DNA from: Deltaproteobacteria bacterium
Lineage (GTDB): Bacteria; Desulfobacterota; Desulfomonilia; UBA1062
Assembly (NCBI GenBank): GCA_011046135.1
Contig: DSBG01000027.1
Span: forward strand, 1-34,401
Reading direction: 5' to 3'
Length of the DNA stretch: 34,401 bases
In this document: positions 4,398 through 32,046 of the stretch, one piece after another
How positions within the stretch are numbered: the stretch's first letter is position 1
Layout: every line of letters begins with the position of its first letter
The notes under the pieces: generated by a model
Databases searched by the model: none
Told to the model about the DNA's origin: nothing
Seen by the model: only the letters and a program-made list of their open reading frames with translations
Position numbers and translations under genes: made by a program

Positions 4398-4444
4398 ATC
4401 TTACAAAATACGAAAATCATCATGGGATCAAGGGGAGAATGACA

Positions 4445-5701
4445 TCACAAGTATGCATCAGCATCGGGAAAGAGATTTTTTACATCGTAGACGACACATC
4501 CGTCTGCCTTGAGTCTCTCGAGATCGAGATCCCTGAACACGTCGTGTGCGACTGCGACCATGATGCCTTCATAGGTGCGGGTGAGGTCTTTTACGTCAGA
4601 GATCAGGTTGATTCCGTACTCGGAGTTTACCTCGAAGGCATCTGCGATGGGGTCGAAGACATCGACCATGCAATCAAAATCCCTGAGCTGATTGATGATA
4701 TCAAACACCTTGGAATTCCTGATATCCGGACAATTTTCTTTGAATGTGACGCCGAGAATCAGAACTGTTGCGTCAGTGATACGATGGGATTTTTTTACCA
4801 TGAGCTTGATGAGCTGGGTTGCGACGTATCGTCCCATTCCGTCATTGAGTCTTCGCCCGGCAAGGATTATCTGGGGGATGTATCCCATGCTTTCGGCCTT
4901 GTGCGTGAGGTAGTAAGGGTCGACGCCGATACAGTGTCCGCCCACGAGACCGGGGCTGAAAGGCAGAAAATTCCATTTTGTCCGTGCAGCCTCAAGAACA
5001 TCCTGGGTCCTGATGTCCATTTTTGCAAAGATCATGGCGAGTTCGTTGATGAAGGCAATGTTGATGTCTCTCTGGGCATTCTCGATAACCTTTGCGGCCT
5101 CTGCCACCCGTATGGAAGGTGCGAGATGGGTTCCTGCCGGTATGATGGACTGATAGAGGGAATCGACAATCTTGGCAATCTCTCGAGTGGATCCGGAGGT
5201 GACTTTCTTTATGGTGGTGAGCCTGTGACGTGTGTCACCGGGGTTTATCCGCTCCGGACTGTAGCCGCAGAAGAAGTCGACGTTATACCTGAGCCCGGAG
5301 GTTTTTTCGATGACGGGAACACACTCTTCCTCGGTGGCTCCGGGATAGACCGTGGACTCAAAGATCACGATGGCCCCTTTCCTGATCACGGATCCCACTG
5401 TTGCGCTCGCCTGTTTCAAGAGGGCAAGGTCAGGCCTGTTGAAGATATCGATGGGAGTTGGCACTGTAACGATGAAGACCGTGCTTTCCCGCAGATCGTT
5501 CTCATCACAGGTCAGATGGAGATGTTCTGCAGCGTCGATCTCTTCGGGACGGACCTCCCTGGTTCGATCGATTTTCCGGTTCAGTTCACCAATCCGTATG
5601 GCATTGATGTCGAACCCGACGGTCGGGTAGCGTTTGCCGAATTCCACCGCAAGGGGAAGACCAACGTAGCCGAGCCCGATGACAGCGATATGATGTTCCA
5701 T
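4445..5701 (-). CDS. tviB: UDP-N-acetylhexosamine 6-dehydrogenase (TviB/WbpO type)
   Basis: This is a nucleotide-sugar dehydrogenase that oxidises C6 of a UDP-hexosamine to the uronic acid with two NAD+, supplying precursors for capsule, Vi-type or O-antigen polysaccharide. The 418 residues open with the NAD motif [16 protein letters not shown]. The catalytic cysteine is C257 in [12 protein letters not shown], with supporting K204 and N208 in [12 protein letters not shown]. The N-terminal pattern [12 protein letters not shown] and the DRTREV segment resemble WbpO/TviB (UDP-GlcNAc/GalNAc) more than UDP-glucose dehydrogenase; that subgroup choice is by eye. An AGGAGG lies about 15 bases before the ATG, further than usual, but no in-frame start exists between them. 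It is the first gene of the minus-strand run. Confidence 0.9.
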
Positions 5702-5906
5702 ACGATTTACTTGCGTCCTCCTCTCACAGTCACAGTCCTTTCGTACTCATTCCACATATCGACCCGGATAATCAAATACTATATTCGCTTCTCGGGAGAT
5801 GATCGGGGGAACCATCGGTTCACCCGGACCAATGCCGTGCAGTTTTCCGAAGCTCACGGGATTGTGCCCTGGGGAGTTGAGGGGGATCCTGTCCCGTCTG
5901 CCTGTC

Positions 5907-5935
5907 TTGACACCGTATGGGAAAAGCAATAAGAG
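5907..5935 (+). promoter_or_regulatory. Candidate sigma-70 promoter of murI
   Basis: A perfect -35 TTGACA (5907-5912), a 17-base spacer and a weak -10 TAAGAG (5930-5935) precede murI. The expected transcript start near 5942 leaves a leader of about 30 bases before ATG 5974. An upstream in-frame ATG at 5917 falls inside the promoter spacer, which argues for the later start. Confidence 0.55.
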
Positions 5936-27509: not shown

Positions 27510-28379
27510 ATGCGTACCTATCCCGAGTGTGTGGCCTGTCTGGTGAGGCAGGCTGTTGACCTCACCTTGAACAATGTCCCTGAACATGAGCAGCACGCTG
27601 TTTTGAAGGTGCTCGTAACAGGTATCGCCAACGCTGATTTCTCGTTGCCACCACCCATGGTTGCCATGGAGATGTATGAACTGCTCAGGACCTGTACCGG
27701 AATCGAGGACCCCTACGCTGCCGCAAAGAATGCCTCCACGCACAAGGCCCTGGGATATGCGTCAGAACTATCGGAACTCATTGCTCGCAGTGCAGATCCC
27801 CTCGACACGGCCATGCGCATTGCCGTTGCCGGCAACATCATAGATTTTGGGATCAACTCGCCTGATCCCGGGCGCATCCATGAAACCGTATCCAAAGCCC
27901 TGCACGCGTCCTTTGCCATTGACTACAGCCCGGAACTCAAGGAGAGGCTCGCGCTGGGGGGCAACGTTCTCTATCTTGCAGACAACGCAGGCGAGATTGT
28001 TTTTGATCGTCTGTTGATTCAACAGATCGGGCCGGAGAGGGTAACCTGTGCCGTGCGTGATATGCCCGTGATCAACGACGCAACGCTCTCTGATGCGACA
28101 CGATCAGGACTGAGCCAGATCTGCAGGGTGATTACAAGCGGTTCCCGTGCACCGGGAACTCCTCGCCAGATGTGGACAGACGAATTCAGGCAGCATTTTC
28201 AGGAGGCAGATGTCGTGATCTCCAAGGGGCAGGGGAACTTCGAGACCCTTTCGCACATAGACCGGGATGTCTTTTTTCTCTTCATGGTGAAGTGCGGGGT
28301 CATCTCCCGGGAAGTCGGTGCTCCCCTGCACAGCTTCATTGCCTTGAAACAGCCGGAAAAGCAGGATGGAGCTCCCTGA
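27510..28379 (+). CDS. DUF89 metal-dependent phosphatase
   Basis: A 289-residue DUF89-family protein. The family is a metal-dependent (Co2+, Ni2+ or Mn2+) phosphatase group proposed to repair or dispose of damaged phosphometabolites. The metal/phosphate motifs are present: N109 and D112 (AVAGNIIDFG), D158 and N159 (LADNAGE), RDMPVINDAT (N189, D190), and SKGQGNFE near K239. Two N-terminal cysteines C7 and C10 (CVAC) may bind metal. The N-terminal MRTYPECVACL resembles the archaeal-type subgroup. It is followed at 240 bases by the GH13-like gene, consistent with a phosphosugar neighbourhood. Confidence 0.86.
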   Translation: MRTYPECVACLVRQAVDLTLNNVPEHEQHAVLKVLVTGIANADFSLPPPMVAMEMYELLRTCTGIEDPYAAAKNASTHKALGYASELSELIARSADPLDTAMRIAVAGNIIDFGINSPDPGRIHETVSKALHASFAIDYSPELKERLALGGNVLYLADNAGEIVFDRLLIQQIGPERVTCAVRDMPVINDATLSDATRSGLSQICRVITSGSRAPGTPRQMWTDEFRQHFQEADVVISKGQGNFETLSHIDRDVFFLFMVKCGVISREVGAPLHSFIALKQPEKQDGAP

Positions 28380-28617: not shown

Positions 28618-31600
28618 ATGTTCGAGTTCCACATCTCAAGACAGTCACGGAACAGATATGAGTTCGACGATACGCTCTTCTCGGTGAGGGGAACCGTTGT
28701 CTTCGCGGAGTACGCTGTTGCTGCGCGGTTTGCAGAAAAGATGAACCAGATGAGAAATGCGTCTCAGCACCCTGATCTCTCGGTGTCTGCAGGAGATGTC
28801 TATGCCATGGGCCTCATCGACGAGATCCTCCACCTCATGGTTCAGATCTACCGTGAGAACGTACGGCCCACCATTCTCGCCGATGCCTACTCCTGGGCGC
28901 AGACACAGGTCGGTGATGTAGAGTCCACCCTGGCGCTCTTTGCCGATCTCTTTCCGAGTACTAAGGTGTACCGAGGTGAGGTGTCTCCTCCGGCCTCCAT
29001 CAGGGGAGAAACCGGAGGAATTCCCAATACCGAGATCAGCCTGGAAGAGATGCTCATGCTCTTCCTGGCAAACGAGAATCCGGCGTTTTACCGGTACCGG
29101 GAACTCTTTGATGACGCTCCTCTGGTGAAACAGAGCAGGTACCCGGAGATCCTCAGGAGTCTCGAGGAGTTTTTTTCATCCCAGCCCCCCATGGATCCCT
29201 CCGGGCAGACGCTGCTGGATCTCCTGAGGGCTCCTGCTCGGGCAGCTCCGCATTCGCTCTACGGCCAGCTGGAGTACATCCGCACACACTGGGGTGGTCT
29301 TCTGAAAGACCTGCTCGTGAATATACTCAAGGGCATGGATTTCATTCAGGAGGAGCGAAAGCGGTTTGGTGCAGGGCCTGGTCCTGCACCTGTCCCCTCG
29401 TTCAGCCTCAAGGACCTCGAAGACATTGAACGATTCAGCCTCGATGATGACTGGATGACCAGGCTCGTGCTCATTGCCAAGAGTGTCCACGTGTGGCTGC
29501 ACCAGCTCTCGAAGAAATACGCCAGTGAGATATCGAGGCTCGACCAGATCCCAGACCAGGAGCTCGAACTGCTTTCGCGATGGGGAATTACCGGGTTGTG
29601 GCTCATCGGAATCTGGGAGAGAAGCCCTGCCTCCCGGAGAATAAAACAGCTGACGGGAAACCCCGAGGCACTCCCGTCTGCCTATTCCATCTATGACTAC
29701 ACGATCGCCCATGACCTTGGGGGAGACGAGGCCTTCGACGTTCTCAAGACGAGGGCTCTTCGGTATGGAATCATGATGGCGACGGACATGGTGCCGAACC
29801 ACACCGGGATTTTTTCCCGGTGGGTGATCGAGCATCCCGAGTGGTTCATCCAGCTCAAAGGCAGTCCCTTTCCCTCGTATAGCTTCAGCGGAGAAGATCT
29901 CTCCGGGGACGATCGCTTCGAGATCAAGATCGAAGATGGATACTGGGACCAACGGGATGCGGCCGTTGTGTTCAGGTGGAAGGATCGCCACACCGGCGAG
30001 GAGCGATTCATCTACCACGGCAACGATGGAACCGGTATGCCCTGGAACGATACGGCCCAGCTCGATTTCCTCGAAAAAGAGGTGCGTGATGCCGTGATCA
30101 AAAAGACCATCGAGATCGCCAGGCGGTTTTCCATCATACGGTTCGATGCAGCCATGACCCTGGCAAAAAGGCATTTTCAGCGGCTGTGGTACCCGCTTCC
30201 CGGTTCAGGGGGTGATATCCCCTCGCGTGCCGCCCATTCCGTCTCACCCCAGGAATTTGAGCGTCTCTTCCCTGTCGAATTTTGGCGCGAACTCGTGGAC
30301 CGTGTTGGTGAAGAGGTGCCGAACACCCTCCTCCTGGCAGAGGCATTCTGGCTCATGGAAGGGTATTTTGTCAGGAGCCTGGGCATGCACCGGGTGTACA
30401 ACTCTGCGTTCATGAACATGCTCAGGGAAGAAGAAAACAGCAAGTACCGTGATGTGATGAAGAATGTCCTGCGGTTCAATCCCGAGATTCTCAGAAGGTT
30501 CGTGAACTTCATGAACAACCCGGACGAGGAATCTGCAGCAACCCAGTTCGGAAAGGGAGACAAGTATTTCGGGGTGGCGACGCTCATGGTGACCATGCCG
30601 GGGCTTCCCATGATCGGGCATGGCCAGGTGGAAGGGTTCTCGGAAAAGTACGGCATGGAATATGCTCGTTCCTACTGGGAGGAGGCCCTCGATGAGGAGC
30701 TGCTGAGACGTCACGAGCAGGAAATCTTTCCCCTCCTGAAACTGCGGTCTCTCTTCAGCGGGGTTGCACAGTTTGTCCTCTACGATGTGGTAACGAAAGA
30801 TGGTCACGTCAACGAAGATGTGTTCGCCTATTCCAACAGGGAAGGTTCACAGCGGGTGCTGGTGGTCTACAACAATCGGTACGCACGGGCATCGGGCGTT
30901 ATTCAGCGATCGGTGAGCATGAGCACGCAGTCGCAGGGGAAAAGGCGCATTCTCCAGAAAACCCTTGCCCAGGGTCTTGATCTCAAGGATGAAGAATCCC
31001 TCTTCTACCTCTTCACGGACATGAGAAGCGGTCTCGATCATGTCCGCTCCTCTGCCTCGATGGCGGCAGAGGGCCTCAGTGTTGAGCTCGATGCCTACCA
31101 GACACAGGTGTTCATGAATTTCCGGGAGGCGCGGGACCACGATGGACAGCTTGCCCGTCTCGTCGAAAGGCTGGGTGGCCGTGGCATACCCGACGTTGTG
31201 GAAGCGCTCAGGGAGCTGTCCCTGGAAAAGGTTCTCACTCCTTTCAGAAGGCTCGTCCATCCCGAGGTCTTGAGGGGGGTCGTTGAAGCAAAGGAAGTGG
31301 AAGATGCATTCAGAGACCCCTGTCGGGCCTTTCTCTTAGCTGCAGCAGAGCATGCTTCTTCATCAGAGGATACAGAGAAAATTCTCCGGGAGATGGAAGC
31401 GCTGCTCTCTGCCGTTCTCAGGCTCCAGGAAGGACCCAGCGAACCCGGAGAGAAGAAGCGCCGGAAAGAAGGTTCTTCCCTGATCAGGATTCCCGCGGAG
31501 AGCACCCCGTCCCTCGAAGATGTGAGGATCCTGATGATCTGGGCCCTGGTGAGTAGAATGGGCGTGCTTGTCTCCGAGCGTGAGGTACCTTCTGCCAGCA

Positions 31601-32046
31601 GGGCGCTCATGAACGAGTGGATGCTCACCAGGGTGATTTCCGAAACGCTCGGAACCCTGGGCGCTGATCATGGCCGCGCCTCCCGGGAACTTCTCCTGAT
31701 TCAGATCCTGACCTCTCACCAGGACTGGTACGAGCGTCTGGTACAGGATTCGGTATATGTCTGGGTCAGGGAATTGTTCTCAGACAGCGACGTGAAGGCA
31801 TATCTCGGCATGAACTCCTTTGATGAGCGGTGGTGGTTCAACCAGGAGTCATCAGAAGACCTGCTTGCCTGGCTTTTTACCATCTCCGAAGTTCTCCTGT
31901 CTGCCGGGTTTTCTTCCAGGATCACTGCTCGGCAGAAGGGAAAGAGACTCCGGATTATCAGGAGGCTTTCGGAACTCGCCCGGGAATCGGGATTCGACGT
32001 GCAAGAGTTTCTCCGGGCAGTCGGGCGCTCTTCCGAGGGTACCTGA
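28618..32046 (+). CDS. Large GH13-like (alpha-amylase superfamily) protein
   Basis: The 1142-residue protein has a GH13 catalytic barrel at about residues 318-720, flanked by a long N-terminal region (1-310) and a long helical C-terminal region (about 850-1142) that I do not recognise. Conserved region I is DMVPNHTG (D390, N394, H395), region II is RFDAAMTL (R508, nucleophile D510), region III is LLAEAFW (acid/base E575), and region IV is FMNNPDEES (D636). The usual histidine before the region IV aspartate is P635 here. A motif GHGQVEGFSEKYGMEY follows. Catalysis on alpha-glucans or maltose-type substrates is inferred; it has no signal peptide, so it is probably cytoplasmic. It starts at ATG 28618 with AGGGGG just before. 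DUF89 lies upstream, glmM downstream. Confidence 0.85.
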   Translation: MFEFHISRQSRNRYEFDDTLFSVRGTVVFAEYAVAARFAEKMNQMRNASQHPDLSVSAGDVYAMGLIDEILHLMVQIYRENVRPTILADAYSWAQTQVGDVESTLALFADLFPSTKVYRGEVSPPASIRGETGGIPNTEISLEEMLMLFLANENPAFYRYRELFDDAPLVKQSRYPEILRSLEEFFSSQPPMDPSGQTLLDLLRAPARAAPHSLYGQLEYIRTHWGGLLKDLLVNILKGMDFIQEERKRFGAGPGPAPVPSFSLKDLEDIERFSLDDDWMTRLVLIAKSVHVWLHQLSKKYASEISRLDQIPDQELELLSRWGITGLWLIGIWERSPASRRIKQLTGNPEALPSAYSIYDYTIAHDLGGDEAFDVLKTRALRYGIMMATDMVPNHTGIFSRWVIEHPEWFIQLKGSPFPSYSFSGEDLSGDDRFEIKIEDGYWDQRDAAVVFRWKDRHTGEERFIYHGNDGTGMPWNDTAQLDFLEKEVRDAVIKKTIEIARRFSIIRFDAAMTLAKRHFQRLWYPLPGSGGDIPSRAAHSVSPQEFERLFPVEFWRELVDRVGEEVPNTLLLAEAFWLMEGYFVRSLGMHRVYNSAFMNMLREEENSKYRDVMKNVLRFNPEILRRFVNFMNNPDEESAATQFGKGDKYFGVATLMVTMPGLPMIGHGQVEGFSEKYGMEYARSYWEEALDEELLRRHEQEIFPLLKLRSLFSGVAQFVLYDVVTKDGHVNEDVFAYSNREGSQRVLVVYNNRYARASGVIQRSVSMSTQSQGKRRILQKTLAQGLDLKDEESLFYLFTDMRSGLDHVRSSASMAAEGLSVELDAYQTQVFMNFREARDHDGQLARLVERLGGRGIPDVVEALRELSLEKVLTPFRRLVHPEVLRGVVEAKEVEDAFRDPCRAFLLAAAEHASSSEDTEKILREMEALLSAVLRLQEGPSEPGEKKRRKEGSSLIRIPAESTPSLEDVRILMIWALVSRMGVLVSEREVPSASRALMNEWMLTRVISETLGTLGADHGRASRELLLIQILTSHQDWYERLVQDSVYVWVRELFSDSDVKAYLGMNSFDERWWFNQESSEDLLAWLFTISEVLLSAGFSSRITARQKGKRLRIIRRLSELARESGFDVQEFLRAVGRSSEGT

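Follow-up and report, generated by a model that had tools for sequence, protein, structure and literature searches.

The described enzymes closest to the protein treated here all belong to glycoside hydrolase family 13 (GH13). GlgE is a maltosyltransferase of subfamily GH13_3, and the phosphate ligands of the Streptomyces coelicolor enzyme have been given as N395, K355, N352 and Y357 (PMC4526890). Subfamilies GH13_48, represented by Thermotoga neapolitana AmyB, and GH13_49, which features an Asp directly before the acid/base residue, were proposed in 2024 (PMC11239784). Altered GH13 active sites are known in principle, as BmaN1 has an aberrant catalytic triad (PMC5347038). Here we describe P0001, a GH13-type protein encoded in a 34,401-nucleotide stretch of a Deltaproteobacteria bacterium from the Desulfomonilia (contig DSBG01000027.1, hereafter the window), in which the usual histidine of region IV is replaced by proline. 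We put at roughly 55% the probability that P0001 acts on an intracellular alpha-glucan, probably in glycogen turnover, as a cytoplasmic and catalytically competent member of a GH13 clade that is separate and uncharacterised.

Active site and the region IV proline

Region IV of P0001 reads VNFMNNPDEES, i.e. NPD stands where NHD is usual and P635 occupies the place of the histidine. The conservation of the site was investigated in 96 distinct family rows, after five identical rows of 101 had been dropped; regions III and IV are blank in one row, which leaves 95 readable there. The nucleophile D510 is kept in 96/96 rows, and E575, N634, P635 and D636 are each kept in all 95 readable ones. The triad and the NPD motif recur without exception in 20 further loci; the most divergent and the shortest were deliberately among those picked, and none duplicates an earlier row. 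The residues named in the original prediction are thus present in P0001 and invariant across the family, and the invariance of P635 rules out both a chance substitution and a sequencing error. Invariance extends to A511, directly after the nucleophile (96/96), and to A574, directly before the acid/base.

The original prediction further held that the exchange of His for Pro should change substrate binding at subsite -1; a necessary change of specificity is not supported by the comparison with GlgE. The solved GlgE of S. coelicolor has the same proline (NTPD) and two GlgE proteins encoded next to family members in KSB1 genomes read NTPDIL, whereas NTHD is found in a protein of Rhizobium johnstonii that carries a GlgE annotation. 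The proline alone therefore does not set the specificity; GH13 catalysis tolerates it, and a single named activity includes both residues. For the same reason the idea that proline is diagnostic of phosphate use was rejected. The annotated Rhizobium GlgE (L121:7708-10932, 1074 residues) also has a long extra N-terminal part. NHD is found in nine short GH13 paralogs from the genome of the window and from its taxonomic family, as well as in the three relatives from plasmids that the tree described below includes.

It is conspicuous that, within the barrel, the lowest predicted local distance difference test (pLDDT) values of the AlphaFold2 (AF2) model coincide with the best conserved stretches. 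Residues 471-480 have a pLDDT of 61 and a conservation of 0.97, residues 581-590 have 47 and 0.96, and residues 591-600 have 61 and 0.99, against a mean barrel conservation of 0.81. These loops may be mobile and close on the substrate. Because of the low pLDDT, the active-site geometry is not established by the model.

Domain architecture

The alpha-amylase catalytic domain (PF00128; residues 315-700, E 1.9e-9, 37.7 bits, cut-off 22) is the only Pfam match of P0001 above the cut-off. The NCBIfam scan gave only matches far below their cut-offs, and no Pfam or NCBIfam model specific to the P0001 family was among the library matches. The AF2 model, built with 88 sequences, has a mean pLDDT of 84.2 and a predicted template modelling score of 0.65, and its VIA matches to GH13 structures cover residues 270-837. 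By its catalytic-domain match, its triad and the predicted barrel and C-terminal beta domain, P0001 is classed as a member of GH13 with a predicted activity; that it is catalytic is highly probable. Large overlapping open reading frames (ORFs) on the minus strand across the gene were not accepted as genes. The features are listed in Table 1.

Table 1. Position of the P0001 gene in the window and of the parts of its product
Feature	Coordinates	Strand	Basis
GH13-type protein P0001, 1142 residues	28618..32046, stop included	+	ORF with ATG start, Pfam
N-terminal all-helical domain, residues 1-275; EFHISR after the first two residues	28618..29442	+	AF2 model
Catalytic (beta/alpha)8-type barrel with domain B, residues 276-715	29443..30762	+	Pfam, AF2, VIA
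Region I DMVPNH, residues 390-395	29785..29802	+	D390, N394, H395 in 96/96 rows
Loop HGNDGTGMPWNDTAQL, residues 467-482	30016..30063	+	97% conserved, pLDDT 61 over 471-480
Region II RFDAAMTLA, residues 508-516, nucleophile D510	30139..30165	+	Family alignment and further loci
Region III and next helix, residues 571-600, acid/base E575	30328..30417	+	96-99% conserved, pLDDT 47-69
Region IV VNFMNNPDEESA, residues 629-640; P635 in the usual His place, D636 third catalytic Asp	30502..30537	+	Family alignment
Beta-sandwich C domain, residues 716-842, usual for GH13	30763..31143	+	AF2, VIA
C-terminal helical region, residues 843-1142	31144..32043	+	Poorly conserved; AF2

Two flanks of about 310 and 290 residues that match nothing known had been proposed on either side of the barrel. 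This holds in part. The barrel begins at about residue 276, and the region after it starts with a beta domain of the GH13 type since the VIA matches to GH13 structures extend to about residue 836. In other words, some 127 residues of the C-terminal flank are the usual C domain, and the extra stretch is confined to about the last 300 residues. The N-terminal flank does remain without a recognised family. It matched no Pfam model in any of 87 members, its sequence profile gave nothing significant against the PDB (best E 0.76), Foldseek gave no match at E 0.001 or better and the best VIA match (Z 2.7, root-mean-square deviation (rmsd) 7.4, 112 aligned residues) is no significant PDB fold. We note that the absent fold match does not prove a new fold. 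Residues 1-280 folded alone by AF2 reached a pLDDT of 85.6.

In 84 of 199 Anaerolineae genomes the profile of the N-terminal domain finds a match, almost always where the GH13 match sits; one genome (G164) has a fragment of the domain with no GH13 match at the threshold used. In this sample the domain occurs essentially only with the NPD type of barrel. The median identity to P0001 is 0.46 for the N-terminal domain, 0.673 for the barrel, 0.449 for the C-terminal beta domain and 0.245 for the C-terminal region (residues 860-1142). In 11 of the 20 further loci only 75-132 residues are left after the C domain, hence the C-terminal helical region is not essential to the family. No Pfam model matched this region in 14 members. 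Its profile hit mainly designed helical bundles in the PDB (best E 1.4e-5), which was judged to be an effect of composition and set aside.

Distribution of the family

Six peptide patterns picked out at least 588 candidate stretches in species genomes, at least 582 of which were confirmed as relatives; 80 of these were kept for analysis. They come from Chloroflexota (48), Myxococcota (5), Pseudomonadota (3) and, with one or two each, nine further phyla, while 13 are unplaced, several of them being KSB1 by title. The reference alignment A1 comprises 88 references out of 94 after the removal of six fragments; A2 is a selection of 77 proteins and A6 consists of 14 of the 88 A1 members. Across A1 the identity to P0001 over the full length is 44-61%, and the full-length architecture is conserved across phyla.

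In a sample of the window's own class 20 of 42 genomes match at E 1e-10, all of them in the window's own family. A further sample of 199 genomes is the class of Longilinea, which we take to be Anaerolineae; 85 of them carry the P0001 family at E 1e-100. The family is thus common in Anaerolineae and occurs in many other, mostly uncultured, lineages. Eight plasmid records match, all partially (29-48% of the query) and with less than 30% identity. No relative was found in the phage records searched, and a library of viral structures gave one GH13 match, from a giant virus (E 1.5e-4, TM 0.22). Within the open-access literature, subscription papers being mostly outside the search, we found no paper that names the NPD clade or treats the region IV proline in its title or at the start of its abstract.

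Phylogenetic position

A barrel tree of 33 rows was calculated with IQ-TREE under C20 with posterior mean site frequencies. It comprised 14 of the 88 A1 members, 12 rows from Escherichia coli and plasmids, the two KSB1 GlgE proteins, four of the nine NHD paralogs and one NHD protein of Nonomuraea. The NPD rows form one clade (support 100/99). The short NHD proteins form another (100/100), and GlgE stands apart. The wider placement is unsure because several of the reference branches from E. coli are long. Nevertheless, this 33-row tree makes the NPD clade a good candidate for a GH13 subgroup of its own, as had been suggested; to rank it formally as a subfamily would need the CAZy set.

One of the NHD paralogs is in the window's own genome (G000:C94, L122:1160-2647) and is uncharacterised. 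Two of the plasmid NHD proteins are annotated 'alpha-amylase family glycosyl hydrolase'. The NHD genes on Caballeronia and Rhizobium plasmids adjoin a gene annotated 'glucosidase', and this 'glucosidase' of the Rhizobium plasmid matches MGH1-like and GH63 models.

Gene neighbourhoods

The neighbourhood survey covered 81 loci with 850 neighbour genes. Genes of glucan metabolism stand beside 18 of the 81 loci (29 gene matches), whereas four housekeeping queries used as a control gave one match. Counted by locus, these genes are GH57-DUF3536 (12), GlgC (5), GlgA (4), TreS (2), MalZ-like (2) and GlgB-like (1); a GlgE-like gene is found beside three loci, two of them true and one a partial match with 32% identity. 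In the KSB1 locus L039 the order is the P0001-family gene, GlgE, TreS, GlgB-like and GH57, all co-directional. A GlgE-pathway cluster with the family gene directly upstream of glgE is seen in two KSB1 loci (L039:6919-8901 and onward; L048:13421-15400). A DUF3536 GH57 has also been described beside GlgE-pathway genes in Pontibacter, where a 4-alpha-glucanotransferase activity was suggested (PMC11206854). Taken together, the glucan genes near other loci of the family support a role on an intracellular glucan, as the original prediction had proposed.

The set of 50 carrier genomes consists of 49 from the 80 contig loci and the window's own genome. GlgE was above the cut-off in six of the 50, therefore the P0001 family is not tied to the GlgE pathway. 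GT5 was present in 49 of the 50 carriers but in 12 of 14 controls too, and PF00343 phosphorylases, found in 176 of the 199 Anaerolineae genomes, gave no co-occurrence signal with the P0001 family either.

In the window itself the P0001 gene has a DUF89/ARMT1-like phosphatase directly upstream and a GlmM-like phosphohexomutase downstream. A gene for a HEAT-repeat protein is also among its neighbours, and further ORFs are presumably rpsB, tsf, pyrH and an frr-like gene. The window genes recur in part over 20 neighbourhoods from the same taxonomic family (the window's included); the putative damage-control phosphatase (27510-28379) is in seven of them, again counting the window's own. In three genomes a large protein is encoded directly downstream, before the GlmM-like gene (L145:11557-15210, L012:4413-8078 and L013:3350-7102), and the one that was scanned (L145, 1218 residues) matched SIS/GATase_6. 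At 4439-5932 the window has an ORF of 497 residues with no Pfam match at 1e-5.

Possible function

If P0001 follows its homologs, D510 would attack the anomeric carbon of an alpha-glucosyl donor in the usual retaining double displacement, with E575 as the acid/base and D636 helping to distort the donor, and the glycosyl-enzyme would then hand its sugar to an acceptor. The likeliest substrate would be an intracellular alpha-1,4-glucan or a maltodextrin, with a role in the building or turnover of glycogen. We lean towards a glucanotransferase over an enzyme that simply hydrolyses. Without the region IV histidine a usual contact to the sugar at subsite -1 should be missing, for which other invariant residues of the active site may compensate. 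The best conserved pair of loops near the site is predicted to be flexible and might close as a lid. The family has retained its N-terminal helical domain throughout, and this domain probably serves to bind glucan, to dimerise or to shape the acceptor side. A cytoplasmic location agrees with the sequence, as no signal peptide is apparent (Kyte-Doolittle maximum 1.08 in 19-residue windows over the first 60 residues; no signal-peptide program was run), in line with the original prediction.

Several observations weigh against this picture. No result obtained here separates transfer from hydrolysis, and it is at the active site that the AF2 confidence is lowest. We found no glucan gene in the window, and only one of the 20 same-family neighbourhoods holds one (GlgA). 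Over the whole survey 63 of 81 loci have no glucan gene, although the flanks are often short. Moreover, 10 of the 12 GH57-DUF3536 neighbours are convergent (at +1) and not co-directional, and there is no co-occurrence with DUF3536 in Anaerolineae, where 16 of 33 DUF3536 genomes carry the family versus 85 of 199 overall.

An ordinary intracellular hydrolase (alpha-amylase or alpha-glucosidase) acting on maltodextrin set free from glycogen would also lack an apparent signal peptide, and the nearest folds include the maltogenic amylase AmyB and cyclodextrinases. We consider this unlikely, since the constraint on the active-site loops and the retained extra domain exceed what such an enzyme would seem to need. 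A phosphate-using enzyme like GlgE, which would move glucosyl or maltosyl units from or to phosphate and for which the proline would be part of the adaptation, is less likely still. It is true that the S. coelicolor and KSB1 GlgE proteins share the proline, that GlgE is among the nearest folds and that the family gene precedes glgE in the two KSB1 loci. On the other hand, the histidine of the Rhizobium protein, provided that the latter is annotated correctly, would make the proline dispensable for that reaction, and GlgE is scarce among the carriers. The GlgE N/S domain PF11896 is absent from the Pfam matches of P0001 (E up to 1). Furthermore, the phosphate ligand N395 aligns to A511 and is not kept, this being the sole firmly anchored column, while N352, K355 and Y357 fall on G471, M474 and W476 in a loop of low identity.

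There is also a small chance that the substrate is not a glucan but a small or different sugar, as with a trehalose or maltose isomerase or an enzyme on an amino sugar or a glycoside. The loss of the histidine contact could suit another sugar at subsite -1, and a GlmM-like neighbour is present in the window and in several same-family genomes, with the SIS/GATase protein in three. Such a neighbour is, however, found at only two others of the 81 loci, and in other phyla it is glucan genes that adjoin the family. A GH13 barrel turned into a non-catalytic scaffold or a regulator in glycogen metabolism would fit the uncertain geometry of the model and the one replaced canonical residue, yet the triad and the residues of regions I, II and IV are invariant in all readable rows, which makes it very improbable. 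A bolder version of the glycogen reading is that the NPD clade has rebuilt subsite -1, with NPD, the two near-invariant mobile loops and an N-terminal domain of unsolved fold, for a glycogen-modifying reaction outside the known GH13 activities, for example priming, chain-length-setting or branch-specific transfer; we regard this as speculative and unlikely.

If glycogen is the substrate, the family would fill a gap in the storage metabolism of the organisms that carry it. Moreover, the NPD clade and the His/Pro variation inside GlgE provide a natural test of the role of the region IV histidine of GH13.

Comparison with known GH13 enzymes

Fold matches by VIA within 1 Z were counted as tied. 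The best was T. neapolitana AmyB (4gkl; Z 24.7, rmsd 3.3, 406 aligned residues), followed by 3dhu (Z 23.8, rmsd 3.4, 394 aligned), GlgE (5lgw; Z 23.3, rmsd 3.5, 420 aligned) and TVA II (1wzl; Z 22.9, rmsd 3.9, 413 aligned). AmyB is a chain of 420 residues without such flanks and has 18% identity to P0001; this match is the only link to GH13_48, of which the tree contained no sequence. The GH13_49 feature is absent from P0001, which has A574 at the position of the Asp. The same holds in the comparison with haloarchaeal MalA (NF041321), the best NCBIfam match (38.7 bits against a cut-off of 875).

GlgE (e.g. PDB 3zss) resembles P0001 in its GH13 barrel, in the proline of several members (NTPD) and in the glycogen context. 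It differs in its other N and S domains, in its separate clade and in an identity of only 17-19% in the structure alignment, and a profile comparison of the P0001 family to one GlgE gave a probability of 44. In other words, GlgE is characterised but distant, and a close characterised homolog with the same proline was not found. The nearest relatives found are the short NHD proteins of about 500 residues, the sister clade of the NPD rows (98/95), among which we found no characterised member. They have NHD and lack both flanks, and their identity to P0001 is about 25% over the barrel. Nevertheless, they have in common with P0001 the motifs WERSPxSR, HGxDP...PWxDTAQ, DMAML/DAAMTL and GLHLF or GLPM..GQxEG.

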